From a virus, in the IMG/VR virus record IMGVR_UViG_3300019926_000156, positions 1 through 45,172 of that record: DNA of 45,172 bases; one strand, given 5' to 3'. Made by a program: the position numbers and the translations under genes. The notes under the pieces were generated by a model. That model worked only from the letters and a program-made list of their open reading frames with translations, did no database searches and was not told the DNA's origin. Below, in pieces: positions 2,198-18,267 of the stretch (its first letter is position 1; the number at the start of each line of letters is the position of its first letter).

Positions 2198-2471
2198 AGA
2201 CGCGTTCGATTCGCGGGTGACCGTACACGTCGTCAGGGTCGACGACCGTGCCGTCGACGTACTGACGTGCATACCCGGCACAGTCGGCACCCGTGCCCGG
2301 TTCGTTCGGGTGACTGTCTAACCACGACTGCGTGACGTGTATGACGGTTTCGTCGTGTGGCACGATATAGTGCATGAATACGTCGACTTCGATGTAATAG
2401 AAGCCGTGTGGGTGCCCCTGCACCTGCCACCGGATTGTGAACGGGTCGGTGTCGATGTCGGCGTCAGTCAT
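2196..2471 (-). CDS. acidic protein of unknown function
   Basis: The 91-aa product starts at ATG 2471 (MTDADIDTDPFTIRW), which overlaps the preceding stop as ATGA. The upstream in-frame extension is a run of Arg codons antisense to the neighbour's Asp run, so it is excluded. The protein has aromatic beta-type segments (FTIRWQVQGHPHGFYYIEVD) and two histidine clusters. No domain is recognised. It is second in the operon with 2468-2920. Confidence 0.72.
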   Translation of the reverse strand: MTDADIDTDPFTIRWQVQGHPHGFYYIEVDVFMHYIVPHDETVIHVTQSWLDSHPNEPGTGADCAGYARQYVDGTVVDPDDVYGHPRIERV

Positions 2472-2920
2472 TGCGAACCACCGTCGGCGTCGTCGTCGTC
2501 GTCGTCGTCGCGTCGTTCGGGCACTTCGACGTACAGTCGAACGCAACCGGCACCGTCACGGAATCGAACCGTTCGGTCGGTCGATTCGTCGGCGTACCCG
2601 GCAAGCCTGACAAGTGACATCGGCGTCGCGTGTGGGTCGTCTTGCCCGAACGAATCGTATTCGACTTTCACTTCGTCGGCACGGTCGAAGTCTATCATAG
2701 ACAACACGTCGAAGCCGACCGCGTCGGCACACAGTTTTGCGGCAAGACCGACCGGCGTTAGAACCTTCGACGATTCCGGGTCGTGGTCGTCGGCGTCGTA
2801 TTCGGCTTCGACCGCGTCGACGACCGCGTCGAACGCGTCAGACGACGGGTCGTCGGCGTACGCAGTCGCAGTCTGTTCCGGCGTCGGTTCGGCGTCGTCG
2901 GCGTCGGTGTGTCGCACCAT
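2468..2920 (-). CDS. acidic protein of unknown function, repeated-promoter gene
   Basis: The product is 150 aa from ATG 2920 (MVRHTDADDAEPT), under a diverged copy of the repeated promoter. The middle contains SSKVLTPVGLAAKLCADAVG and a possible DNA- or protein-binding helix pair. The C-terminus runs into a stretch of Asp codons and ends in ADGGSQ, as do other upstream partners of coupled pairs here. It is translationally coupled to 2196-2471. Confidence 0.75.
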   Translation of the reverse strand: MVRHTDADDAEPTPEQTATAYADDPSSDAFDAVVDAVEAEYDADDHDPESSKVLTPVGLAAKLCADAVGFDVLSMIDFDRADEVKVEYDSFGQDDPHATPMSLVRLAGYADESTDRTVRFRDGAGCVRLYVEVPERRDDDDDDDADGGSQ

Positions 2921-2952
2921 ACCCGTACTTGCATACCCGTGTATAAGTATCT
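2918..2952 (-). promoter_or_regulatory. repeated promoter module, class A, copy 3 (upstream half diverged)
   Basis: The spacer and TATA (CTTATA at 2947-2942, 24.5 nt from ATG 2920) match the family. The conserved block upstream of the TATA is replaced by the start of the AT-richer 2963-3205 repeat. Confidence 0.7.
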
Positions 2953-2962
2953 GTCGGTGGTT

Positions 2963-3205
2963 TACTATCAGGTACAGTACCGATACAGTCATATACGCAG
3001 TTTCGATTCTAAGCCGTCTTAGCGGTCGCACAGTCGGCTTCAATTTTCGCCGACCCATACCACCTATTCTTTTTTCAAACGGATTCGGCAAGTTCGGACC
3101 CTGTACTTACTGATATCGGGCGTTTCGGCAAAATACACGGGTATTTAAAGGCACCCGCCGATATCACCCTGTATCATAATACCGAAACAAAACGCGTCGG
3201 TTCCG
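2963..3205. repeat. AT-richer intergenic repeat, copy 1
   Basis: About 240 bp match 26707-26948 at roughly 90% identity by eye. The block is the largest non-coding stretch of its arm. It contains a T/A-rich run near 3070, a TTTAAATA word near 3145 and an imperfect inverted repeat of TGATATCGG type around the latter. Together with the adjacent family Y element it fills the gene-free interval 2921-3358. I see no convincing gene in it. Confidence 0.8.
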
Positions 3206-4786: not shown

Positions 4787-5141
4787 TCGAACCACCCGGC
4801 AGGCATTCAGACGTGTCGTCGACCGCGTCGGCGACGGTTCGGCGAATGGTCGACAGGTACGGCGTCTTCGTGAATATCGCAACGGCGTCGAACCTGTCCG
4901 ACAGACGGTCGACTGCGTACTGCCGGTCGTCGACTGCCCATGCAAGTGCCGGGTACACGGCACGCGACAAGTCGTCGGCGTCGAATAGGTCGGTCGACGC
5001 GTCGAACGCGACTGCGACGAATCGGCAGTCGTCACGAAGCCGCGACTGCACGATGTCTTGCGTTTCCTGCCCGAATGCCGACCACACGGTTTCGTCGTCG
5101 GCGTCGCGGATTGCGTCGGCAAGGTCCGATTCCGTCGTCAT
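4779..5141 (-). CDS. acidic helical protein, unknown function
   Basis: The product is 120 aa from ATG 5141 (MTTESDLADAIRDADDE), coupled by ATGA overlap to the gene upstream and by a similar overlap to the one downstream. The body looks helical (VWSAFGQETQDIVQSRLRDD, YPALAWAVDDRQYAVDRL). Its first residues match the small gene at 1-108, and the whole junction sequence is duplicated. The family is not recognised. Confidence 0.75.
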   Translation of the reverse strand: MTTESDLADAIRDADDETVWSAFGQETQDIVQSRLRDDCRFVAVAFDASTDLFDADDLSRAVYPALAWAVDDRQYAVDRLSDRFDAVAIFTKTPYLSTIRRTVADAVDDTSECLPGGSNE

Positions 5142-5353
5142 TGCGAACCACCGTCGTCACGCGGGTCGTCGAAGCCGTCGACGTACGTGACTGCAAGGTC
5201 GATAATCTGGTTCGGGTCGTCGATTGAACCGACTTCGTCGACGATGAATTCGGGCACGTCGTCGTCGCCGGTTAGTGCCTGCATTGCGTCGAACGCGTGT
5301 GCTTTCGTCTGTTCGTCGGTTCCGTCGTCGTCGGCGTCGGTGTGTCGCACCAT
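5138..5353 (-). CDS. small acidic protein, repeated-promoter gene
   Basis: The product is 71 aa from ATG 5353 (MVRHTDADDDGTDEQT). Its first 30 residues resemble the 40401-41036 product (MVRHTDADDDRTDEQT...DAVQAL), and its end DPRDDGGSQ matches the 105-467 product. It leads the three-gene operon 5353-4358. The function is unknown. Confidence 0.78.
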   Translation of the reverse strand: MVRHTDADDDGTDEQTKAHAFDAMQALTGDDDVPEFIVDEVGSIDDPNQIIDLAVTYVDGFDDPRDDGGSQ

Positions 5354-5400
5354 ACCCGTACTTGCATACCCGTGTATAAAAATGTGTCGTCTTGTACCGG
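5351..5400 (-). promoter_or_regulatory. repeated promoter module, class A, copy 4
   Basis: TTTATA at 5380-5375 is centred 24.5 nt from ATG 5353. The full conserved upstream block is present. Confidence 0.8.
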
Positions 5401-5407
5401 CAGGTGT

Positions 5408-5755
5408 CTATGCAGTTGCGAACAGGATAATCGCAAGGTTCGACCCGGTGATTAGGGCACCGACTGTCGTTAGTGACGCCGGTATCGCCGTTCGATACTT
5501 CGTGTTCGCGGTGAAATAGAAGCCGACTGCGACTGCAAGAACCACCGCTTTCATGCCGACCATTAGCAAGGGTCCGAAGTCGACGATTGTACTGCCGACA
5601 GGGTGCGTTTCGGTCACACCGGGCAGGGATAACCCGACGACTGTTGTGATTACGTCGCCGACGACGAAGGTTAGTGCCGACGCAACCCAAAGCCACCCGT
5701 CGGTGTCTGTACTGCGTTCGTCTAACGCGTCGATTGGATTGGTCACAGTCTGCAC
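5408..5755 (-). CDS. four-helix membrane protein
   Basis: The 115-aa product starts at GTG 5755 (MQTVTNPIDALDERSTDTDG). No ATG is available upstream before a stop. Four hydrophobic segments are visible: WLWVASALTFVVGDVITTVV, a stretch near LLMVGMKAVVLAVAVGFYF, a segment around PASLTTVGALI and GSNLAIILFATA at the C-terminus. Loops are short, so it should sit in the cell membrane. The role is unknown. The upstream 130 bp carry two palindromes. Confidence 0.72.
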   Translation of the reverse strand: MQTVTNPIDALDERSTDTDGWLWVASALTFVVGDVITTVVGLSLPGVTETHPVGSTIVDFGPLLMVGMKAVVLAVAVGFYFTANTKYRTAIPASLTTVGALITGSNLAIILFATA

Positions 5756-5888: not shown

Positions 5889-6158
5889 TCACGTAATCGA
5901 CCGTACGTCGTTGTCGGCTTCGCGCAACCGTCGGATACACCGGGCACACAACGGCTTTCGTTTCGGTCGTCGGTCGTCGTCGAAAAAGACTGTGTGAACG
6001 GTACTGCGTACGTCGTCGCGTTCGCACCGAACGCAGGGTCGTGATTCGGTGACCATGACCGTGCCGTCGGTGTCTGCCGTCTTAGTGATTCGCCCGCGTC
6101 TGTCGGCGATTGTGTAAACCGTATGGTGCGATACAAAGTCGGCGTCGTCGGCAGTCAG
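5889..6158 (-). CDS. zinc-ribbon protein, possibly CTG-initiated
   Basis: The frame holds CVRCERDD and CARCIRRLRE, two CxxC knuckles about 32 residues apart, and ends at TGA 5889. The only ATG is at 6056 and gives 55 aa. The haloarchaeal codon pattern continues upstream (TADDADFVSHHTVYT) to a CTG at 6158 that overlaps the previous TGA as CTGA, exactly parallel to the ATGA, GTGA and TTGA junctions elsewhere here. The longer form would be 89 aa. I give the longer span; the ATG form is the conservative alternative. Confidence 0.6.
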   Translation of the reverse strand: MTADDADFVSHHTVYTIADRRGRITKTADTDGTVMVTESRPCVRCERDDVRSTVHTVFFDDDRRPKRKPLCARCIRRLREADNDVRSIT

Positions 6159-9100
6159 TCGTCAGGGTCGACCGCGTCTTCAACCGTCACGGCTTCGATT
6201 CGCGTAATCGTGCGTGGTTCGTCGAAGTCGGCACCGTGCAGTTGCGGTCGGTATGCGTTCACCTGTCTGTCGTCGGTGTCGCCGGTGGTTCCGACGCGTG
6301 TTTCTGTCCATTCGACCGATACCATGCAGTCGTCACGAAGCCATCGGAACGACGCCGTGTGTGCCGTCTTCGTTCCGTACTTGTGGTCGGTCGTCGACCG
6401 TGCGTGTCGTCTGAATTCGGCGGTGACCGTGCCTGCGACGGTTCGCAGGTGGTACGCGTCGCCGGATTCGACTGTGACCGTCGTGTCTTCGTTCACGGGT
6501 ATGTCGACCGATACGTACGGCGTCGCGGCAGGGTCGACCACGGTGTCGAAGTCGCCGTCGTCGCCGTCGTCGCCGGCACCCTGCCCGCCGTCGGTTCGAA
6601 CCGCGTGCAGGGTTGCGTCGAACGATATGACTGCAAGCCACCCGTCGGTGTCGACGACGGACAGTCGACCGCCGGCATTCCATACTAACTGCTTGCCGTC
6701 GGCGTCGGCAAGTTTCACGATGTTAGATAGTTCCGTGCCGTCGACCGTCTTGATGTCCGTGTCGGTCACCGTTCCGGCGATTCGACCTTTGCCGTCGTCG
6801 CCGGCAATCGGTTCGGCTTGCACGACCACGTTGTCACCGCGTTCAAGGTCGTGTGCGTCGACTTCGGTGTCGTCGTCGGTATCCTGCCCGCCGTCGGTTC
6901 GAATCCTGCCGTCGCCGGCGTCACAGTCGTCGTCAGACGCGTCAGACGTGCCGTCAGGGTCGTCGTCGGTGTCGTCGGTGGTTTCGTCACCGTCGTCGAC
7001 GCGGTCGACGTGCCGTGCAGACACGACGATAGACGTGCCGTCGTACGCGACGTGCCCGTCACCGTCGCGGGTCGTGGTCGCAGTCAGTTGTGACCCGTCG
7101 ACTTCGTCGACCGTTGCCTGCCCGCCGTCGACGAAGGTGCCCGAATGTTCGTCGGGCACGAACACGGTGTCGCCGGCGGTGATATCGTGGTCGTAATTGT
7201 ACTTCGGGTCGTCGAAGTCGACGCCGGCGTCGGTTAGTTCGTCGACGACCGCGTCTGACGACCGGATTTCAGGCACCGCGAAGTCGCGGTCGTCACCGGC
7301 TTCGAACGCGACGAATTCGATATCGCCGATGTACGTGTGATTCCCTGCCGACGACACCGAATGTATCTGTCCGGTCGTAAACTTGTCATTGCCGAACCGG
7401 AACGACCCGTCGTGGTCGTCGGTTTCGAAGACGATTCGGTGCAATTCGCCGTGTGCGTGATTGTACGTCACGTTCGTCACCGTGCCCGACTTCGTCAGGG
7501 TCGACGACGAACGGTTCGAATCGTACGCGACGAACACCCTGTCGCCGATTGCGATATCGCCGGCGTCGAAGGGCACTTCTTGATACGTACCCAATGACTG
7601 CAAGCCGGAACCTGACGTGCCGGCGGTGACGTGACTGTCGTACGATTCGGCGGTTTCGTACGCGACTGCACCGGGTCGGTCGTCGTTGTAGACTTCGCCC
7701 GACGATTCCTGCACGTACCACCTGTCGTCGTCGGTTGCGGTGAACCGAACGACACCGTCGGACACCTTCGTCACCGTGCCCGCGACGACGGTGTCGTCGT
7801 GATTGCAGTCTTTGCCCGTGACGACGATACTGTCGCCGGCTTCGAACCTGCCGTCGAATGCGTCACAGTCGTCGTCAGACGCGTCAGACGCGTCGTCAGG
7901 GTCGTCGTCGGCGTCGTGCCCGCCGTCGGTCACCGGGTCGGCACGTTCGACAGTCAGGTGCCGGTCGTCTGATTCCTGCACGGCGTCGACACCGTCGAAG
8001 TGTCGTAACATTGCGTCGCCCGCGTCGACCGCCGTGTCGTCGCCGGTGAATGACATCGACAATTCGTGTAACTGAACGCCGACGACGCGTTCGTCGGCAG
8101 GGTCGACCGCGAAGTGTCCGTACCGGGCACCACCTTTCACCGTTCGCAAGTCGACCGCGTCAGTCAGGGTCGACAATGCCGACTGCACTTCGTCGACGAC
8201 GCCGTACTGTTCGGCGACGATTTTGTCAGGTTCGAACCACCCGGCAAGACCCGTTCCGAAGTCGAACGTGGTTCGGTCACCGGAACGGTCGGCGACGAAT
8301 CTGATTTTGTGCCGGTCGGCGTCATTCATCGGTTTGTCGACTGCGACTTCGAACGGGTCGGCGTCTTCGTCGCGGGCAGACAAGACACGACGGCACGTTT
8401 CCGTCGCCGTGTCTGCCACCGGAACGAAGACACCGGATTCGACGGATTCGACGAAGTCGTCGATAGTGTCTGCCGAACCGTTGTCGTACCGAACGACCGT
8501 GTCGAACGACGCGTCGTCGACGGTTTCGACGGTGTAAACCTTGTCGTTGTGAACGCCGACGAACGTGTCGCCCGGCGACGGCATATCGGCGTTGTCGGCG
8601 TCGTCGGTGCCGTCGTCGACGATGTCGATGTCGTCGACACGACCCAACTGCGTATTGTGTTTGCGTGACGGACCCGTCGACTTGTGCAGAAACACGGGCA
8701 CGGTGTCGCCGTCGGCACGAACGTACCGCGTCGAACCGTCGTAATCGGCGTCGGGTGCCGTCGCGTTCGTTTGCAGTCGGATTCGGGCAGGGGCACCGTC
8801 GTCGTCGGTCGTCGTCACGGCTTCGGTGACCCACACGTCGACCGTCGTGGTTTCGTCGTATTCGTCTTTGTAGTGACGCGACTTGTGTGCGTACGTCACT
8901 TCGATTCGGTCACCGGCTTCAAGACCCTGCACGATGTCGAACGCGTCGGCAAACGGCAGGTGGTCGGTCGTCGATTCGTCGGCGTCGTCGGCGGGCACAA
9001 GTTCGATTACGTCGGCGTCTTTCAGTCTGTACGACAGCGTGCCGTGTGGTTCCGGGTCGACCCATGTGGTGCGACCCGACGCCGAATCGTCTGTCGTCAC

Positions 9101-9316
9101 GCGGTACACGTCTGTCGTGCCCGGTATCGGGTCGTGTCGCCGTCTGAACTTGTCTAACGTGTCGGCGTCTGTGTGCCACCGTTTGCCTTGCCGCAAGACG
9201 ATTAGCGATTCGTCTTCGGGCAGGTTCGGCAGGATTGCCGCGACGGTTAGGGCAGTACGATACGACAGGGGCACACCGACGCGTAAGTTGTTCCAATCTG
9301 TCGGTTTCCGTGTCAT
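6155..9316 (-). CDS. giant modular beta-domain protein, unknown function
   Basis: This is the longest gene, 1053 aa from ATG 9316. About six units begin with a [F/I/L]xxGDxxxV motif: EAGDRIEVTY, SPGDTFVGVH, EAGDSIVVTG, AIGDRVFVAY, TAGDTVFVPD and ERGDNVVVQA. Each is followed by 50-70 residues of alternating hydrophobic strands, which suggests small SH3- or KOW-like barrels joined by Asp/Ser linkers. Two linkers carry the DNA repeat encoding SDASDDDCDA. There is no signal peptide or membrane helix. The gene overlaps its neighbours on both sides. A scaffold for nucleic-acid or protein binding is a guess. Confidence 0.8.
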   Translation of the reverse strand: MTRKPTDWNNLRVGVPLSYRTALTVAAILPNLPEDESLIVLRQGKRWHTDADTLDKFRRRHDPIPGTTDVYRVTTDDSASGRTTWVDPEPHGTLSYRLKDADVIELVPADDADESTTDHLPFADAFDIVQGLEAGDRIEVTYAHKSRHYKDEYDETTTVDVWVTEAVTTTDDDGAPARIRLQTNATAPDADYDGSTRYVRADGDTVPVFLHKSTGPSRKHNTQLGRVDDIDIVDDGTDDADNADMPSPGDTFVGVHNDKVYTVETVDDASFDTVVRYDNGSADTIDDFVESVESGVFVPVADTATETCRRVLSARDEDADPFEVAVDKPMNDADRHKIRFVADRSGDRTTFDFGTGLAGWFEPDKIVAEQYGVVDEVQSALSTLTDAVDLRTVKGGARYGHFAVDPADERVVGVQLHELSMSFTGDDTAVDAGDAMLRHFDGVDAVQESDDRHLTVERADPVTDGGHDADDDPDDASDASDDDCDAFDGRFEAGDSIVVTGKDCNHDDTVVAGTVTKVSDGVVRFTATDDDRWYVQESSGEVYNDDRPGAVAYETAESYDSHVTAGTSGSGLQSLGTYQEVPFDAGDIAIGDRVFVAYDSNRSSSTLTKSGTVTNVTYNHAHGELHRIVFETDDHDGSFRFGNDKFTTGQIHSVSSAGNHTYIGDIEFVAFEAGDDRDFAVPEIRSSDAVVDELTDAGVDFDDPKYNYDHDITAGDTVFVPDEHSGTFVDGGQATVDEVDGSQLTATTTRDGDGHVAYDGTSIVVSARHVDRVDDGDETTDDTDDDPDGTSDASDDDCDAGDGRIRTDGGQDTDDDTEVDAHDLERGDNVVVQAEPIAGDDGKGRIAGTVTDTDIKTVDGTELSNIVKLADADGKQLVWNAGGRLSVVDTDGWLAVISFDATLHAVRTDGGQGAGDDGDDGDFDTVVDPAATPYVSVDIPVNEDTTVTVESGDAYHLRTVAGTVTAEFRRHARSTTDHKYGTKTAHTASFRWLRDDCMVSVEWTETRVGTTGDTDDRQVNAYRPQLHGADFDEPRTITRIEAVTVEDAVDPDD
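6919..6962. repeat. dispersed linker repeat, copy 1
   Basis: A stretch of about 42 bp encoding DGTSDASDDDCDAG-type linkers occurs twice in the giant protein (here and 7861-7902) and once in the RHH-type protein (17143-17186). Its core also appears in family Y elements. The match is at DNA level between unrelated proteins. Confidence 0.65.
7861..7902. repeat. dispersed linker repeat, copy 2
   Basis: This is the second copy within the giant protein gene. It encodes DDASDASDDDCDA on the minus strand. Confidence 0.65.
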
Positions 9317-9618: not shown

Positions 9619-10043
9619 TGTGTCACCCGTTGCATTACTGCAAGGATTGCGAACGCGTACAGGAAAGCAAACGCACCGCCGACGATTAAGCCGACGTGAA
9701 CACCGCCGAACGACGCCGACACCGCCGTCGTGCCGTACGCGACGGACAAGGCACCCACCGCAAGGGTGCCGTATAATCCTGCCGTGACGGTCGTTCGTGC
9801 CGGTGGCACGGCGTCGACAATGCCGGTCGTTGTCGTCGATAGTGTCTTCGACATTGCCGTCAGTACGTCGTCGCCGTCGTCGTGCGTGTCAGTTTCGTCG
9901 ACCGCGTCGCCGGCGTCGTCGTGCGTCGGTGCGTCAGGGTCGGCTTCGCCGGCGTTCGGTTGCACTTTCCGATTCACCGTTCGGTCGTCGTGGTCGTCGC
10001 CGTCACCGTCACCGTCGACAGTACCGCCGTCGGCGTCGGTCAT
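9615..10043 (-). CDS. acidic protein with two C-terminal membrane helices
   Basis: The product is 142 aa from ATG 10043 (MTDADGGTVDGD), overlapping the clamp gene's TGA as ATGA. The first 65 residues are almost all Asp, Gly, Thr and His and probably disordered. Two hydrophobic segments follow (VTAGLYGTLAVGALSVAYG and HVGLIVGGAFAFLYAFAIL). The acidic part would face the cytoplasm or the exterior. The function is unknown; a holin-like role is possible but unsupported. Confidence 0.75.
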   Translation of the reverse strand: MTDADGGTVDGDGDGDDHDDRTVNRKVQPNAGEADPDAPTHDDAGDAVDETDTHDDGDDVLTAMSKTLSTTTTGIVDAVPPARTTVTAGLYGTLAVGALSVAYGTTAVSASFGGVHVGLIVGGAFAFLYAFAILAVMQRVTQ

Positions 10044-10837
10044 GCTGATTTTGGTAATCGTGGTGCCTGCATTATCTTCGTGTCTATCGTGTCGTGTCGC
10101 GTTGTCCATACGTGGTATGGCATATTGTCGCCGGTTACCATACGGAACGTGTCGGCGTCGATTATCGACACGAAGTCTTGCAGGTACGATAGTGACTGTT
10201 TTACCGTGACGCGTGTGTCCGGTGTGCCGTCGTCGTTGTACGCGAAGTCGTCGGCGTCGTGAATGTCGACCGATACTGAATCGGTGTCGCCGTCACCCGT
10301 CACCGTGAACGCCGAATCGTCGTCGAACGTGAATGTGCAATAGTTGGTCACCATGTCAGTCACGTCGACGGCACGGTCGAACTTGTCTGTCGGTACTGTG
10401 CAGTCGACGACGTACCCGTCTTTGTCTGCCGGCGGTACGTCGAACGGTGACCCGGTGACGGAATCGACGGTAAGACCCGCCATTCGGAATTCGATTTCTC
10501 CGGCTTCGATTACGAATTCGTAATTGTCCCAATCGTACCACAAGTGTACGGGTGCGTCGACCTTGCCGATTACGTCGCCGAACCGTTCGATATTCACACC
10601 CAACCGGAACGTGCCGGATACGTCGTAATGGTCGAAGTCGTCGGCGTCGACCGTCTGTCGGACCATTGCGACGTTTGCCGCGTCGACACTTCTGTTTTCG
10701 AAACCGTCAGGTGTGAATTCGAAGACGGTTTCGAAGCGATTGATTGCCTGCAATCCGTTTGCGATACTGTCCCATACGTCGCAGTCGATTATCGTGTCGA
10801 CGGTTACTTCGCCGTCGGAACCTGTTTCGGGTGGCAT
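10040..10837 (-). CDS. PCNA-like DNA sliding clamp
   Basis: The product is 265 aa from ATG 10837. The layout follows archaeal PCNA: an early strand-helix region, SVDAANVAMVRQTVDADDF (the domain-1 motif seen as AVDPANVAMVDL in hosts), LGVNIERFGDVIGKV, the interdomain region near FRMAGLTVDSV and a second domain starting at DRAVDVTDMVTNYCTF. It closes with SLSYLQDFVSII and a C-terminal tail MQAPRLPKSA. The length matches the family (about 247 aa plus an N-terminal extension). The clamp would form a trimeric ring and tether the polymerase. No viral polymerase is visible, so a host polymerase is the likely partner. Confidence 0.82.
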   Translation of the reverse strand: MPPETGSDGEVTVDTIIDCDVWDSIANGLQAINRFETVFEFTPDGFENRSVDAANVAMVRQTVDADDFDHYDVSGTFRLGVNIERFGDVIGKVDAPVHLWYDWDNYEFVIEAGEIEFRMAGLTVDSVTGSPFDVPPADKDGYVVDCTVPTDKFDRAVDVTDMVTNYCTFTFDDDSAFTVTGDGDTDSVSVDIHDADDFAYNDDGTPDTRVTVKQSLSYLQDFVSIIDADTFRMVTGDNMPYHVWTTRHDTIDTKIMQAPRLPKSA

Positions 10838-10895
10838 GGTTGTTCGGTGGGTCCGAATTGCGGGTCGGATACCCGCCGACCGCGTGGTCGGAAAG

Positions 10896-10978
10896 TGGCA
10901 CCTGCCGGATTCGAACCGGCGAAGTCCTGCGACGCACGGTCTTAAGCCGTGTGCAGTCGACCACTTTGCTAAGGTGCC
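10896..10978 (-). tRNA. tRNA-Leu (anticodon UAA)
   Basis: The minus strand folds with a perfect 7-bp acceptor stem (GGCACCT/AGGTGCC), a D arm closed by GCA/TGC and a 5-bp anticodon stem (CACGG/CCGTG) around loop CTTAAGA. A long type II variable region and a T arm GCCGG-TTCGAAT-CCGGC follow. The anticodon is UAA, and the discriminator base is A. CCA is not encoded. A TTAA box lies about 28 nt upstream. It decodes UUA and, by wobble, UUG. Confidence 0.95.
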
Positions 10979-10986
10979 CCAAACGA

Positions 10987-11002
10987 ACCGGCGTGCGCCG
11001 GT
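10987..11002. terminator. inverted repeat between the 11005 gene and the tRNA
   Basis: ACCGGCG-TG-CGCCGGT forms a 7-bp stem with a 2-nt loop just after the stop of 11005-11292 and just before the tRNA. It may end the upstream transcript or help processing. No T-tract accompanies it. Confidence 0.4.
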
Positions 11003-11004
11003 GG

Positions 11005-11292
11005 TTAATGCGTGTCGGCGTCGTCTGTCGGCATATTCGGCACAGTCGCGTCGACCGACAGGGTTTCGTTCAGGATTCGTTTCACGCAGTCGTCGCACAC
11101 CGTTGCTTTCGTGTTCGACGGTGCCGGCGAATTTTGGTTTTGTACGTATTCGCCGACAAAGTGCCCGATGTCGACTTCGTGCCCGTTGTCGTCGGCAGTC
11201 AGGAATCGGTCACACCCTGCACCGTCGCACACGTCACCGCGTTCGATATCCGATTCGTCGATTACCGTACCGTCGGGTAATTTCAATGCCAT
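11005..11292 (-). CDS. small zinc-binding protein
   Basis: The product is 95 aa from ATG 11292. It starts MALKLPDGTVIDESDIERGD, has CDGAGCDRF and then VCDDCVKRIL about 35 residues later, and a histidine between them. The pattern suggests a treble-clef or zinc-ribbon fold. It sits four bases after the end of the 387-aa gene and is probably in one operon with it. Confidence 0.78.
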   Translation of the reverse strand: MALKLPDGTVIDESDIERGDVCDGAGCDRFLTADDNGHEVDIGHFVGEYVQNQNSPAPSNTKATVCDDCVKRILNETLSVDATVPNMPTDDADTH

Positions 11293-12582: not shown

Positions 12583-12731
12583 CGATGTCTGCACAGTCGG
12601 CGTCACAGTCGTCGTCAGAAACGGCACAGTCGGTCGTGACGCCGTCGCAGTCGTACGTGCCGTATGGGTCGAATCAGGAAAAGAAACGTCGCGTACCGTA
12701 CGCCGTCAGTCGTGACGACCCTGCCGCGTCA
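12583..12731 (-). repeat. 3'-flanking repeat family Y, copy 2
   Basis: This starts at the TGA of the 12729-14426 gene and runs leftward, sharing most of its sequence with copies 1 and 4. On the transcribed strand it includes GTTTCTTTTCC, which could serve as a U-rich archaeal terminator. With the 12460 promoter it accounts for the interval 12461-12728. Confidence 0.75.
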
Positions 12732-14426
12732 GTCGTCGGTGTACTTGTCGTGCAGGGTCGTGAATGACCCGTTTCGGGAATCACGGCACCCACACGGGCA
12801 CCGCAAGGTTAGTTCGCGGTCGGTCGTCGTGTTGTATCGACTGATTTTGTAGGTGTGAACGCGAAGGGTCGGTCGAAGTCGGTCACCACACCACGGGCAC
12901 ACCGCAAGTTCGTGCAAGACTTCGGTGCCCTTGTCGGTGATATCCCACCGGGCATTAGGGTCGTCGAAGTCGGCGTCGTCATTGCCGTCGACGCGTTCAA
13001 TCAAGCCGACTTCGCGTGCCTTGCGAATGACCGTTCGAAAGTGTGCGTCGCCGTGTGCGAAGCCGTCGGGTCGACGGAAACCCGTGCCCGGTGACCCATG
13101 ACCCTGCACCTTGCGAACACCTTGCTTACCCGTCGGGCACGGTGCGATATCGTCAGGGTCGACATCGTCGTCGTACGTGTTCACGGTGAACATACCGCCG
13201 TCGCCCGACGCGTCTTCGCGTGCCGACGCAATGAATTCCTGCCACCACGCGACATCGGTAAGCAACGACCGAACCTTCGTCGGCGTCACCGACGCGTATT
13301 CGTCGAACACGTCGGCGACATCGTCGGGCACGTCGGCGTCGTCGACGGACCACACGCGGTCGTCTTTGCAGTCGATACACACCGGGTCGTCGTGTGCCGG
13401 GTGGTCGTGTTCGGCACCGGCGTCGTGCGTGTCACCGCAACGGGCACAGTCGAACGTGTCGATGTACCTGTCGGCGGTCTTTTTGCCGTCGTCGTTGTAC
13501 TGTGCCTTGTTGTAAGCCGCGTCGCGGATTCGTTCGACGTTTCGGTTCACGGACAGTCGGCGAAACGTCTGTGCGACTTCGGTTCGGTTGTTGTCCGACG
13601 CGTCGACAAGGTCGGAATACGAAGCCGCGTCGAATTCGTCGTCGAAGTCGTGTGGTATCGTCGCACGATACCACAAGGGTCGTTCGTAATCAGGGTCGTC
13701 GTATGACGGCAAGCCGTCGTCGACATCGTCGCCCGCCGTGCCTGCACGCAATGCGATAGTTGCGTCGAAGGGGCAGTCGCCGTCGTCGCCGTCGCAGGTG
13801 TATCGCAGTCGAATGATTCCGTCGTCGTCGACACGGGTGCGTTCGCGGTTCCGGTGACCGTCGTGAACCGGGCACGTCGGCGGTGCGTGTGACAACGATT
13901 CACCGTCGGCGTCGTCGGAATACTGTTCGACGACCTTGTGAACGACGGTGCCGTCTTCGACGACCGTTCGAATCGACCCGTCGTGCCGAATCTTGATGTC
14001 GTACTGTTCCGGTTCGGCGTCGCGCAAGAAGTGTTCCGTGTCGGCGTCGGAGTGTGCGTCGACTTTGGCTTCGACCGGGTCGGTGTCACCGCCGTCGGTC
14101 ACCGCGTCGGCGACTGCCGTTTCGAACGCGTCGACGGTGTCGCCGAATCCGCGTTCGGCGTCGGTCGGTTCGCGGTCGTCGGCGTTCAGGTGGTCGTCGG
14201 CGTCGGCGGTGTCGTCGCGGTCGACGCCGTACGGATTGCGCGACTTTAGTTCGGCGATTGCGACTTCGGCGTTCGCGGTAAGGACAGGTTCGGCGTATTC
14301 GCCGTCGGGCAGGTTCGCGGCAGTCTGTGCGACGCGGTCGATGTACTGAATCAGTTGGTCGGTCGACATCGTCGTCGGGTCGATGTCGGCGGGCGATTCG
14401 TCGTCGGCGTCGGTGTGTCGCACCAT
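12729..14426 (-). CDS. large zinc-ribbon/winged-helix protein, probable regulator, repeated-promoter gene
   Basis: The product is 565 aa from ATG 14426 (MVRHTDADDESPAD); a second ATG at 14432 would add two residues. Motifs in order are: an acidic helical N-terminus; a Cys/His segment PTCPVHDGHRNR...YTCDGDDGDCPFD near 190-230; a CARCGDTH...CIDCKD ribbon near 330-360; and a winged-helix-like segment GDAHFRTVIRKAREVGLIERV...WDITDKGTEVLHEL near 465-515. A final CPWCGDRL...CPCGCRD ribbon follows. It is divergent from the TFB-like gene, so the two may be regulated together. DNA binding is inferred from these motifs. Confidence 0.75.
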   Translation of the reverse strand: MVRHTDADDESPADIDPTTMSTDQLIQYIDRVAQTAANLPDGEYAEPVLTANAEVAIAELKSRNPYGVDRDDTADADDHLNADDREPTDAERGFGDTVDAFETAVADAVTDGGDTDPVEAKVDAHSDADTEHFLRDAEPEQYDIKIRHDGSIRTVVEDGTVVHKVVEQYSDDADGESLSHAPPTCPVHDGHRNRERTRVDDDGIIRLRYTCDGDDGDCPFDATIALRAGTAGDDVDDGLPSYDDPDYERPLWYRATIPHDFDDEFDAASYSDLVDASDNNRTEVAQTFRRLSVNRNVERIRDAAYNKAQYNDDGKKTADRYIDTFDCARCGDTHDAGAEHDHPAHDDPVCIDCKDDRVWSVDDADVPDDVADVFDEYASVTPTKVRSLLTDVAWWQEFIASAREDASGDGGMFTVNTYDDDVDPDDIAPCPTGKQGVRKVQGHGSPGTGFRRPDGFAHGDAHFRTVIRKAREVGLIERVDGNDDADFDDPNARWDITDKGTEVLHELAVCPWCGDRLRPTLRVHTYKISRYNTTTDRELTLRCPCGCRDSRNGSFTTLHDKYTDD

Positions 14427-14475
14427 ACCCATACTTGCGTACCCGTGTATAAAAATGTGTCGGCTTGTACCGGGC
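14424..14475 (-). promoter_or_regulatory. repeated promoter module, class A, copy 5
   Basis: TTTATA at 14453-14448 is centred 24.5 nt from ATG 14426. The module shares the 100-bp divergent interval with the promoter of the TFB-like gene. Confidence 0.8.
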
Positions 14476-14494
14476 AGTCGGTGAATGCCGACAC

Positions 14495-14502
14495 GTTTTT
14501 AC
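14495..14502 (+). promoter_or_regulatory. TATA-like box for the TFB-like gene
   Basis: GTTTTTAC is centred about 28 nt upstream of ATG 14527. This supports that start over the ATG at 14485, which lies upstream of the box. Confidence 0.45.
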
Positions 14503-14526
14503 CTGCCGTCGGCGTACCCTGCACCG

Positions 14527-15528
14527 ATGTCAGGTGCAAAAACCGACCCGCCGACCCTTCGCCGTCTTGCCGATTCCGTCGGCTTCGACGACGGTGATAT
14601 CGACTTCGCCGAACAGTTAGACGACCAACTGCCGAACGACGGTGGTTTCGCCGACCGTGACGCCGGTATCGTGTACGCCGTCGCGCGTATCAATAACGTG
14701 CCGATTCGACCCGGCGAAGTCGCCGACGCGTCGCAGTACGACGATGTCGACGCCGATACTGTCGTGAACGACACGCGACGTATCGCCGACACTATGCCCT
14801 TCGACTTACACGTCGACGACCCGTCGGCGTTCGTAAAACGATTCGTCGACGACGTATCCGATGTCTGCCGGGTGCCCGACGGTTTCCGGCAGACTGCCCT
14901 TCGTCTGTGTGCCGACGCAACGAACGCCGGCTTGCAGTCAGGTAAGTCGCGTTCCGGTTTTGCCGCGTCGGTCGTGTACGCGGCTTCGGTCGTCACCGAC
15001 GCCGATATCGGGCAATACGAAGTCGCCGACATCGTCGACGTGTCACCCGTAACAATCCGAAACCAGTACCGACCGATTATCGACTGCACCGACGAACACG
15101 ATTGGACAATGCACGACGCCGACGACTTGCCCGAACTTGTCGACGCAATCGCCGACGACATCGACCGCGTACCTGACGACGTGCGTGACGACGCGGTCGG
15201 CGTCGCCGAATCAGTCGTCGCCGACGAACCGGAATTCGTCACGTCGACGAAGGTGACCGGAACCGCCGGCGGTGTCTTCTATGTCGTTGCTGAACGACAC
15301 CGTTTCGACGTTTCCATGCAAGAAGTCGCCGATACCGCCGGCGTCAGTAAGCATACAGTCGTTGCCCGTGTTCACGACGTGCGTGATTACTGCCGTCGCG
15401 TTCAGTACCGAACGATGAATTACAACCGTCTGAAAGAACTTGCCGCGTCGCACGACCTTGATGTCGGCACGACGCCGGCGAAGTCAGACATCGTCGACGC
15501 GTTAGTTCGCAACAAAATCGACGCATAA
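14527..15528 (+). CDS. TFB (TFIIB)-like transcription factor lacking the zinc ribbon
   Basis: The product is 333 aa from ATG 14527 (MSGAKTDPPTLRRL). Cyclin-type helical repeats are visible. One half-repeat is AGIVYAVARINNVPIRPGEVAD. A full repeat lies around QTALRLCADATNAGLQSGKS...AASVVYAASVV...YEVADIVDVSPVTIRNQY, and a second around VGVAESVVADEPEFVTST...VFYVVAERHRFDVSMQEVADTAGVSKHTVV. The family's N-terminal zinc ribbon, which contacts RNA polymerase, is absent. A short SAP-like module (NYNRLKELAASHDLDVG) is added at the C-terminus. It heads a four-gene rightward operon and may direct polymerase to viral promoters. Confidence 0.72.
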   Translation: MSGAKTDPPTLRRLADSVGFDDGDIDFAEQLDDQLPNDGGFADRDAGIVYAVARINNVPIRPGEVADASQYDDVDADTVVNDTRRIADTMPFDLHVDDPSAFVKRFVDDVSDVCRVPDGFRQTALRLCADATNAGLQSGKSRSGFAASVVYAASVVTDADIGQYEVADIVDVSPVTIRNQYRPIIDCTDEHDWTMHDADDLPELVDAIADDIDRVPDDVRDDAVGVAESVVADEPEFVTSTKVTGTAGGVFYVVAERHRFDVSMQEVADTAGVSKHTVVARVHDVRDYCRRVQYRTMNYNRLKELAASHDLDVGTTPAKSDIVDALVRNKIDA

Positions 15529-16324: not shown

Positions 16325-16746
16325 CCGGGTCGATATTGGGGCACTTCGAAGACTGGTTCAAAAGCCGCGACACGCGGATTCGACACCGATACGAAGACGA
16401 TGTCGGGCAATGGGCATTCGTCGTTCAGGTGCGTGGTGACGAACTTGTCTGTGCCGCAAGGTCGTCGTACCGTGACGACGACGCGTCGCAGGTGTCGATT
16501 ATGAAACGCGTCGCAGGTAGGGCACAAGTCCGTGACGGCTTCGTCTGTCTTCGCGTTCGTGACGATATCCTTGTCTTCGACCCGGTCGCAATCCTTGCGG
16601 CAGGGTCGAATGACGAAGTCTTCGAAGACGACCGCAAGAAACGCGGTGAACAATGGGTCGTCGTGCCTGTCGATGTCGCCGTTCCGTTCGACAGGTGGTT
16701 CGACGGTGTCGACCCTGCCACCTTCGGCGATATTACTGATTACTGA
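16321..16746 (+). CDS. beta-rich protein of unknown function
   Basis: The product is 141 aa from ATG 16321 (MTGSILGHFEDWFKSRD). The pattern of strands (GQWAFVVQVRGDELVCAARSS, FVCLRVRDDILVFDPVAIL, EQWVVVPVDVAVPFDRW) suggests one beta-barrel domain. Its last 14 bases overlap the convergent 16733-17494 gene. It is last in the TFB operon. No function is assigned. Confidence 0.73.
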   Translation: MTGSILGHFEDWFKSRDTRIRHRYEDDVGQWAFVVQVRGDELVCAARSSYRDDDASQVSIMKRVAGRAQVRDGFVCLRVRDDILVFDPVAILAAGSNDEVFEDDRKKRGEQWVVVPVDVAVPFDRWFDGVDPATFGDITDY

Positions 16747-17494
16747 ACGCACCGCCGTCGCGTGCCTTGCGATACGTCGTCTGTTTCACCCTGTCGCCGA
16801 TGTCGGCGACTTCGGCGTCGACCGCGTCTTCGGTTCGACCGATTACGATTTTCCATGCCGACCCGTCACCCGTATCTGCCGGCTTCGCAACGACTGCGTT
16901 GTACTTGTCGACGACGCGTTCAATCAGGGATTCGCGGGCACGGTCACCGAACGACCACCTGTCGTCTATTATGTTCGTCAGTACGGCACGCGGTACTGCG
17001 ACCGCGTCGTCGGTGGTTCGCAAGAGGTATTCGGCGATGTATTCGGCTTTGTCGCGTTTCGGTGCCTTTGCGTGTGGTACGTCGTCAGGGTCGAAGTCGG
17101 AACCGCCGTCGTCGGTACTGTCGTCGGCGTCGTCTGTGCCGGCGTCACAGTCGCCGACAGACGCGTCAGACGTGCCGTCAGGGTCGACCCGTGCAGTCTG
17201 CCCGGTGTGTGTGTGCGACGGTCGTGAAACGGTGCGTGTGGTGTCTGTACCGCCGTCACAATCGACGACGACCGCGTCTTCAAGCCGCGACAATTGTGCC
17301 TGAATCGTTGCGACATCGTTTTCTAACCGGGCGATTTCATCGGTCGGTCGGTCGGCGTCGATGTACTGCCGTATTGCGTTTTCAAGTTCGTCACGCAAGA
17401 CACCGCGTCGTTGCCCGTGCCTGTCTTCGACGTACCGAACGAACCTGTCGTACAAGTCGGCGTCTATCGGCGTCGGTTGTTTGGTGTCACCCAT
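16733..17494 (-). CDS. RHH-type N-terminal domain, coiled coil and winged-helix-like C-terminus; probable DNA-binding protein
   Basis: The product is 253 aa from ATG 17494 (MGDTKQPTPIDADLYDRF). The opening PIDADLYDRFVRYVEDRHGQ...LRDELENAIRQYID resembles CopG/ribbon-helix-helix proteins of haloarchaeal plasmids. It is followed by a short coiled coil (IARLENDVATIQAQLSRLED) and an Asp-rich linker carrying the repeated SDAS...DCDAG stretch. A helical domain (AEYIAEYLLRTTDDAVAVPR...RESLIERVVDKYNAVVAKP) closes the protein. Its promoter box (GTATTTAC at 17528-17521) lies about 30 nt upstream. It sits beside the four-hairpin block, an attractive binding site for it. Confidence 0.72.
   Translation of the reverse strand: MGDTKQPTPIDADLYDRFVRYVEDRHGQRRGVLRDELENAIRQYIDADRPTDEIARLENDVATIQAQLSRLEDAVVVDCDGGTDTTRTVSRPSHTHTGQTARVDPDGTSDASVGDCDAGTDDADDSTDDGGSDFDPDDVPHAKAPKRDKAEYIAEYLLRTTDDAVAVPRAVLTNIIDDRWSFGDRARESLIERVVDKYNAVVAKPADTGDGSAWKIVIGRTEDAVDAEVADIGDRVKQTTYRKARDGGAFSNQ
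17143..17186. repeat. dispersed linker repeat, copy 3
   Basis: This copy is in the Asp-rich linker of the 16733-17494 protein and encodes DPDGTSDASVGDCDAG. It differs from the other copies by a few bases. Confidence 0.6.
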
Positions 17495-17520
17495 TGCAGA
17501 TTTCTGTTTTGTACCCTGTT

Positions 17521-17528
17521 GTAAATAC
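17521..17528 (-). promoter_or_regulatory. TATA-like box for the 17494 gene
   Basis: GTATTTAC on the minus strand is centred about 30 nt upstream of ATG 17494. Confidence 0.45.
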
Positions 17529-17584
17529 GTGCCGGTTGTTTCGATTAAGATTGTACTAACTGTGCGTCTTGTGTGCAAGCCGAC

Positions 17585-17704
17585 ACTACTTACTACTTAG
17601 TTTGTACTGTAAAAGTAGTAAGTAGTAACAGGTGGGTCGGTTCACCGACCCACCTAATCGGGTCACCGACCCGATGTCTTGCGATTCGACGAATCCGTCG
17701 AATC
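17585..17704. other. block of four consecutive perfect inverted repeats
   Basis: Hairpin 1: 14-bp arms 17585-17598 and 17613-17626 (ACTACTTACTACTT and its complement) around a 14-nt loop. Hairpin 2: 12-bp arms 17630-17641 and 17644-17655 with a 2-nt loop. Hairpin 3: 8-bp arms 17657-17664 and 17668-17675 with a 3-nt loop. Hairpin 4: 9-bp arms 17683-17691 and 17696-17704 with a 4-nt loop. The block lies between divergent genes (starts 17494 and 17794) in a 299-bp gene-free interval. An origin, a partition or packaging site, or a structured RNA are all possible. Confidence 0.85.
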
Positions 17705-17793
17705 TGCACCGTACCGTCTGACACCGTCTGCACACACACACCGCAATCGGCACCGACACGCGTATCGGTCACCCGTTCAATGTTCACGATACC

Positions 17794-18267
17794 ATGTCTT
17801 CGACAAAGGGTGACAGGTGGGAAAGAAATTATCGAAACGCGTTGTGTGCAACTGATTCCGAAGCCGACGCCGACGACATCGACCGCGTCGGTGTCGATAG
17901 TGTCGACGCCGTCGAACCGTTCGTCGCCGTTCGTATGCCGTCGTCAGGGTCGGCGACACGCGAAGACTTGCCCGACTTGCACGTCTGGTATGTTTCCGGG
18001 TCGGTCGTTCGGGAATTCGCCGTCGAAGTGAAAGCCGGTCGTGACAGGGTTAGATTGGATAATTCCGAAGTACCTGCACTTCGTCGGTATGCTGATTCGA
18101 CCGCGTCTGAACCAATCGTGTTCGTACATATTGATTACGTCGGCGACTTCGTCGTGCCCGTCGACGACCTACACAGTACCGATAAAGGGTACACGTTCAC
18201 CGAAAGTCGTGACGCCGGCGACGCCGTCACATTCGCCGAATGGGTGCAGTCTGTGCCGACTGTTTAA
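17794..18267 (+). CDS. Hjc-like Holliday junction resolvase
   Basis: The product is 157 aa from ATG 17794. The archaeal resolvase signature is intact: STKGDRWERNY with Glu10, RMPSSGSATREDLPD with Asp61 and AVEVK with Glu78 and Lys80, followed by an alternating C-terminal part (PIVFVHIDYVGDFVVPV). These are the metal-binding PD-ExK residues of the family, which cuts four-way DNA junctions as a dimer. In tailed viruses such an enzyme commonly resolves branched replication or packaging intermediates. It lies beside the four-hairpin block. Its stop overlaps the convergent gene 18264-18638. Confidence 0.85.
   Translation: MSSTKGDRWERNYRNALCATDSEADADDIDRVGVDSVDAVEPFVAVRMPSSGSATREDLPDLHVWYVSGSVVREFAVEVKAGRDRVRLDNSEVPALRRYADSTASEPIVFVHIDYVGDFVVPVDDLHSTDKGYTFTESRDAGDAVTFAEWVQSVPTV

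Follow-up and report, generated by a model that had tools for sequence, protein, structure and literature searches.

The block of hairpins at positions 17585–17704 of the window, by which we mean the whole analysed stretch of 45,172 nucleotides, may be the core of a replicator, a cis-acting DNA site specific to the virus, which is read by the protein of the adjacent gene and may well act as a replication origin. We give this leading reading, which is built on sequence, slightly less than an even chance. The linkage of the block to one gene and its product P0002, its occurrence as a single site per genome and the selection acting on DNA shape together point to a cis site bound by that protein. 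An origin had been one of several functions proposed in the earlier note; a DNA-level site for the RHH-type protein is now supported, with the origin as the leading but unproven function. As a conserved site with a dedicated protein, the region offers a defined fragment of roughly 1 kb that lends itself to plasmid assays and might be developed into shuttle vectors.

The window virus, an IMG/VR record, carries within its 45 kb the tail, portal, capsid and terminase genes of the haloarchaeal tailed virus type. Its hairpin block is flanked by two divergent genes, the RHH-type gene (minus strand) and hjc (plus strand), and the region contains the following features:

16733–17494, minus strand: RHH-type gene encoding P0002, whose RHH-like N-terminus is joined by an acidic linker to a C-terminal winged helix
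17203–17236, no strand: inner inverted-repeat copy, which follows directly on the DGG codons in the linker-coding stretch of the RHH-type gene
17520–17527, minus strand: TATA-like element (TATTTACA), 26–33 nt upstream of the RHH-type ATG, at haloarchaeal promoter spacing
17585–17626, no strand: hairpin 1, AT-rich, arms 17585–17598 and 17613–17626 of 14 bp, loop of 14 nt
17630–17655, no strand: hairpin 2, GC, arms 17630–17641 and 17644–17655 of 12 bp, loop of 2 nt
17657–17675, no strand: hairpin 3, GC, arms 17657–17664 and 17668–17675 of 8 bp, loop of 3 nt
17679–17686, plus strand: TTGCGATT motif after hairpin 3, from the alignment, represented by GCGATT or a close variant in most relatives
17683–17704, no strand: hairpin 4, arms 17683–17691 and 17696–17704 of 9 bp, real and without counterpart in relatives
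17710–17743, no strand: outer inverted-repeat copy, containing GCACACACACACCG
17794–18267, plus strand: hjc, Holliday junction resolvase (PF01870)

The four adjacent perfect hairpins described in the earlier note were all recovered at 17585–17704, and the arms of each are 100% complementary. When non-overlapping hairpins with arms of at least 8 bp and loops of at most 14 nt are counted within a span of 125 bp, a four-hairpin cluster occurs once in the window, and the best of 20 dinucleotide-Markov sequences reaches two hairpins, placing the block far above chance. Fold prediction on both strands, one of the checks proposed earlier, returned strong folding on each, with RNA z-scores against shuffles of −7.8 (plus strand) and −8.3 (minus strand) and a DNA z-score of −12.1. 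Hairpin 1 is composed of ACT/ACTT (AGTA/AGTAAGTA) repeat units, and exact copies of AGTAGTAAGTAG occur once in each of its arms and nowhere else in the genome. This hairpin is a candidate iteron array and melting region. To its left, at 17570–17577, a third, shorter TG-rich box can pair with the outer box at 17729–17736 (TGTGTGCA/TGCACACA); a similar third TG-rich box is present in the viral contig L007.

Searches with Hjc and the RHH-type protein revealed the same neighbourhood in the viral contigs L004, L005, L006, L007, L015, L017 and L019, and the RHH-type protein also in the isolates Hardycor1, HRTV-28 and HRTV-4 and in L010 and L165/L166. Counted outward from this protein's gene, the elements come as AT repeat hairpin, two GC hairpins in succession, GCGATT or a close variant, and CA-rich box. 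This order is common to eight haloarchaeal tailed viruses (the window virus, L004–L007, L015, L019 and Hardycor1), of which Hardycor1 is the weakest, its CA-rich outer box not being clear; each of the seven relatives among them has a counterpart of the AT-rich hairpin. Recurrence in relatives was therefore borne out for hairpins 1–3, but not for hairpin 4, whose place is taken by unrelated sequence next to the retained TTGCGATT motif. In the most divergent relatives (L165, L010, L017, HRTV-4 and HRTV-28), the GC hairpins are missing or not clearly recognisable, indicating that they are not essential to every member, and the repeat array and the inverted repeat also turn up in divergent relatives that have no clear GC hairpins. 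L165 and L166 carry, upstream of their RHH-type gene, a (TAC)n array of about 10 versus 6 copies; at about 2900–2950 in these close relatives, the copy number of the ACT array varies in a microsatellite-like manner.

No relatives of either flanking protein were found among about 85,000 prokaryote species represented by one genome each, and no DNA similarity to phage records was detected. A scan for the AT palindrome recovered the full block only in two relatives, both already found, and a DNA-pattern scan with GCGATT...GCACACACAC was too loose, so that its loci were left out. We found no description of the block in the literature covered, from which subscription journals are mostly missing; the Hardycor1 paper lists other intergenic repeats and, in the passages located, does not describe this region (PMC7911831).

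A sign of constraint comes from the GC hairpins, in which the letters differ in nearly every virus while the pairing stays perfect, with loops of 1–4 nt. Hairpin 2, present in eight viruses, displays two to three different Watson-Crick pair types per position. For hairpin 3 we used fixed 8 bp arms in seven viruses, a fairer count than one with arms ended at mismatches, and found 56 of 56 cells paired, two-sided changes at 6 of 8 positions and one-sided changes at none. This covariation was equalled by 0 of 500 shuffles and disappeared on sliding the partners. Conservation with compensatory changes had been the earlier note's own key test, and the block passes it. No G-U intermediates were seen, which would place the constraint on DNA or on both strands rather than on a single RNA strand, as far as seven sequences can tell; in the survey of hairpins 2 and 3, the lack of G-U arises partly by construction, as arms were ended at mismatches. 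Across viruses, the MAFFT alignment of the AT arms was unreliable.

A self-search of the intergenic region returned a 34 bp match in inverted orientation inside the RHH-type gene. In relatives, the outer copy usually lies 180–335 bp before the ATG and the inner copy usually at gene nucleotides 190–320, beside the DGG codons. The two copies agree within each virus and differ between viruses: the window has GCACACACACACCG, L005 has GTGCGTGTGTGTATAG and HRTV-28 has AAAAAGAAAAAA in both copies, and those of L010 read CGTGAAAAAACAAAAAGGA and CGGGAAAAAACAAAAAGGA. Summed over 12 viruses, the within-virus match scores reach 411, whereas shuffled partners average 277 (permutation p<5e-6). Taken singly, some viruses, for example L004, L017, HRTV-28 and Hardycor1, do not reach significance, and in Hardycor1 the match, at other positions and with a score no better than chance, is probably due to chance. 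L165, found after the 12-virus test, agrees with a score of 30 (0 of 500 shuffles as high) and carries AAAAAGAAAAAAC in both copies. The residues encoded by the inner copy vary (HTHT, ACVY, KNKK, KKKK), yet its match to the upstream copy persists, so that the constraint appears to act on the DNA and not on the protein. Whatever its function, a paired repeat that co-varies per genome and has one intragenic copy would be an unusual two-site control element.

An invertible switch that would generate an RHH-Hjc fusion was considered for this repeat and rejected, as the frame is not conserved and no tyrosine recombinase turned up in the seven genomes searched. Inversion would give an in-frame Hjc fusion only in the window (17743 to 17794) and L006, and not in L004, L005 or L015. 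The frame in the window was counted by hand; the automatic test had taken a shorter match at gene nucleotides 360–376.

P0002 is a candidate site-binding protein or initiator. In this protein and its relatives, an N-terminal RHH pattern is followed by a variable acidic linker and then by a C-terminal domain, and searches of P0002 against Pfam, NCBIfam and PHROG gave no profile match. Its RHH assignment is inferred from the sequence pattern and from two predicted helices in low-confidence AlphaFold models, in which the mean pLDDT of P0002 and its relatives is about 60 overall and 74–88 for the C-terminal domain. The latter aligns to winged helices, with weak Foldseek matches and a best VIA-align Z of 6.0 to what is a common fold. 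P0002 has no helicase, primase or endonuclease domain. Regarding the two flanking genes as first described, Hjc is confirmed by its profile, and the RHH-like protein fits the pattern but lacks a profile match.

A TATA-like element is located near −29 of the RHH-type ATG in several viruses, a position that would put the hairpins upstream of the expected RHH transcript; a scan for bacterial-type terminators and promoters stayed at chance level. The RHH-type gene is the constant neighbour of the block, whereas hjc is inconstant: in Hardycor1, hjc lies at 27.5 kb and the block at 44.1 kb. In L007, an extra gene (5133–5580, minus strand) sits between block and hjc, indicating that hjc is not tied to the block. 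The idea that the block serves mainly as a cruciform substrate for Hjc was rejected on these grounds, as the block is kept in Hardycor1 and L007, where hjc is not adjacent.

Profile searches of seven genomes, including the isolates Hardycor1, HRTV-4 and HRTV-28, found no MCM, Orc/Cdc6 (Cdc6_C), PolB or Prim-Pol (PF09250), implying that initiation would depend on the host or on an unrecognised viral protein; binding of host Orc1 at the site may be considered. The same searches gave neither a ParA-type protein (PF13614) nor a tyrosine integrase. No primase/helicase family was present among the window proteins scanned, and Pfam scans of the larger window proteins detected no HUH or Rep-Arvir Rep endonuclease. 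PCNA is encoded by four of the genomes, the window included, where a PCNA-like sliding clamp (10040–11098, minus strand) occurs with no detectable viral polymerase, as also in G001, G002 and G003. A TFIIB-like factor is encoded near the block (14485–15528, plus strand), and a similar gene lies near the block of L015 (7327–8472, minus strand). The window further harbors a tRNA-Leu (TAA) gene (10895–10978, minus strand) and an acidic 1053 aa protein (6155–9316, minus strand) for which Pfam, NCBIfam, PHROGs and PDB sequences gave no confident match. Three genes (1280–2290, 2468–3091 and 12729–14432, all on the minus strand) have near-identical starts (HGYAS.GMVRHTDADD or MVRHTDADD), which suggests a repeated promoter/leader unit copied before different genes, comparable to the MNANT repeats reported for Hardycor1.

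GC skew at fourfold sites of same-polarity genes differs between the two sides of the block, with −0.003 versus +0.077 in the window, −0.106 versus +0.034 in G001 and −0.121 versus +0.052 in G002. Cumulative skew, another of the checks proposed earlier, gave a divided answer: the window has its peak at 17639 and G001 has one no more than 0.7 kb from the block, but in G002 the distance is 3 kb, and in Hardycor1, HRTV-28 and HRTV-4 the peak lies elsewhere. Moreover, the extremum is a maximum, conventionally read in bacteria as a terminus and opposite in sign to an origin. As a sign of an origin, the skew shift is suggestive only; differing gene modules could cause it.

For a replicator, these features can be arranged into one putative sequence of events. 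RHH dimers of P0002 would attach to the ACT/ACTT tandem array in the AT-rich hairpin, and the C-terminal winged helix would bind both copies of the framing inverted repeat, the one upstream of the gene and the one in its linker, looping roughly 540 bp together. Torsional strain would then melt the AT-rich repeat, and the GC hairpins would extrude as short-loop single-strand DNA hairpins that stabilize the opening. Once extruded, they might mark the loading place for host primase/helicase and polymerase, with the window virus supplying the PCNA encoded in its own genome. By binding shortly before the TATA-like box of the RHH-type gene, the RHH domain would autoregulate this gene as well.

Regulation alone is the main alternative, possible but doubtful: P0002 would be a transcription regulator, binding the repeats and the distant copies and repressing by looping its own gene, perhaps also the divergent side, with no role in replication. 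Such an operator would agree with a site just upstream of the TATA-like box, with RHH and winged-helix domains that are common in archaeal viral regulators, with repeats and distant paired sites suited to looping repression, and with the one site per genome expected of an autoregulator. However, operators conserve sequence and not pairing, which leaves unexplained why two or three perfect short-loop hairpins of free sequence persist, and the block is kept though the far-side gene changes (L007, L019, Hardycor1). The RHH fold also brings to mind a centromere-like partition site with its centromere-binding protein, by which the virus would be carried stably in the manner of a plasmid, since RHH partition operons usually have tandem repeats immediately before the RHH gene. 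The seven genomes have no tyrosine integrase, so that lysogeny would need episomal carriage. Motor-less partition systems exist; still, the absence of ParA from the seven genomes weakens this earlier suggestion, related isolates were obtained as plaque-forming viruses, and hairpins and an intragenic repeat copy are foreign to partition sites. We consider it unlikely.

A structured RNA, also named in the earlier note, here as a non-coding RNA or 5' leader with transcription running across the block, would account for the strong RNA folding on both strands and for the covariation. We regard it as quite improbable, because none of the 56 hairpin 3 cells holds a G-U or one-sided change, the hairpins are equally strong on both strands, the region has no Rfam match, the hjc side varies between viruses, and the RHH transcript is expected to begin only beyond the block, which lies upstream of the TATA-like element of that gene. 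Chances appear slim for a packaging initiation (pac) site recognised by terminase. The block lies about 3–6 kb upstream of terL on the circular map in Hardycor1, HRTV-4 and HRTV-28, which suits this earlier idea, but the distance ranges from 3 to 20 kb overall and is about 19 kb in the window, and the tight linkage is to the RHH-type gene and not to terminase. Template switching at inverted repeats could likewise keep the arms perfect, and as a functionless mutational by-product that also homogenises distant copies it would explain perfect arms and matching copies together. It leaves unexplained the constant order, position, loop size and gene neighbour in viruses down to about 30% identity in the RHH-type protein, and we hold it to be very unlikely.

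The favoured replicator shares traits with several known systems. Iteron replicons, including RSF1010 oriV, use single-strand initiation hairpins, and as in these, direct repeats, an AT-rich segment and adjacent hairpins lie beside the gene of a DNA-binding protein, here an ACT/ACTT array beside the RHH-type gene. In contrast to them, the repeat unit is only 3–4 bp, no primase gene was found, and in place of a Rep with two winged helices in tandem (e.g., Rep_3), P0002 combines the putative RHH domain with one winged helix. Lambda ori is a cis site inside the linker-coding part of the gene for O itself, a likeness to the inner inverted-repeat copy; here, just one of the two copies is intragenic and the repeat array is outside. 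RHH partition operons (omega, ParG) have tandem repeats immediately upstream of the RHH gene, an arrangement seen here as well, with an RHH fold that comes from low-confidence models. They differ from the present site, which has no ParA-type partner and has conserved hairpins, an intragenic repeat copy and an extra winged helix.

The SNJ2 origin of betapleolipoviruses, served by Rep-Arvir, has a conserved hairpin beside an inverted repeat (PMC13107129). SNJ2 is likewise a haloarchaeal virus, and its Rep also has a winged helix. There, however, the hairpin is downstream of a rolling-circle endonuclease gene and conserved in sequence, whereas here the hairpins are upstream, their sequence is not conserved and the proposed initiator is without a catalytic domain. 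In the pRN1 family of Sulfolobus plasmids, the best archaeal precedent, the origin stem-loop is needed for replication and is conserved in structure but not in sequence, with a similar stem-loop in phage BIP-1 (PMC4234260). The likeness lies in a non-coding stem-loop near a replication gene, with structure kept without sequence; stem integrity is required in pRN1. In that origin, a single large stem-loop follows the primase-helicase-winged-helix gene, unlike the several short-loop hairpins and direct repeats found here upstream of an RHH-winged-helix gene with no detectable primase or helicase. Since pRN1's catalytic replication protein was not found, we do not file the element under the pRN1 type; nor do we file it under the SNJ2 type, of whose Rep the Pfam scans of larger window proteins gave no sign. 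Tentatively, the site could instead represent a new type of viral replicator in haloarchaeal tailed viruses without a known initiator, combining an RHH-winged-helix initiator, a short-repeat melting element, GC hairpins and two self-matched boxes, one of them in the initiator's linker, with the host replisome.
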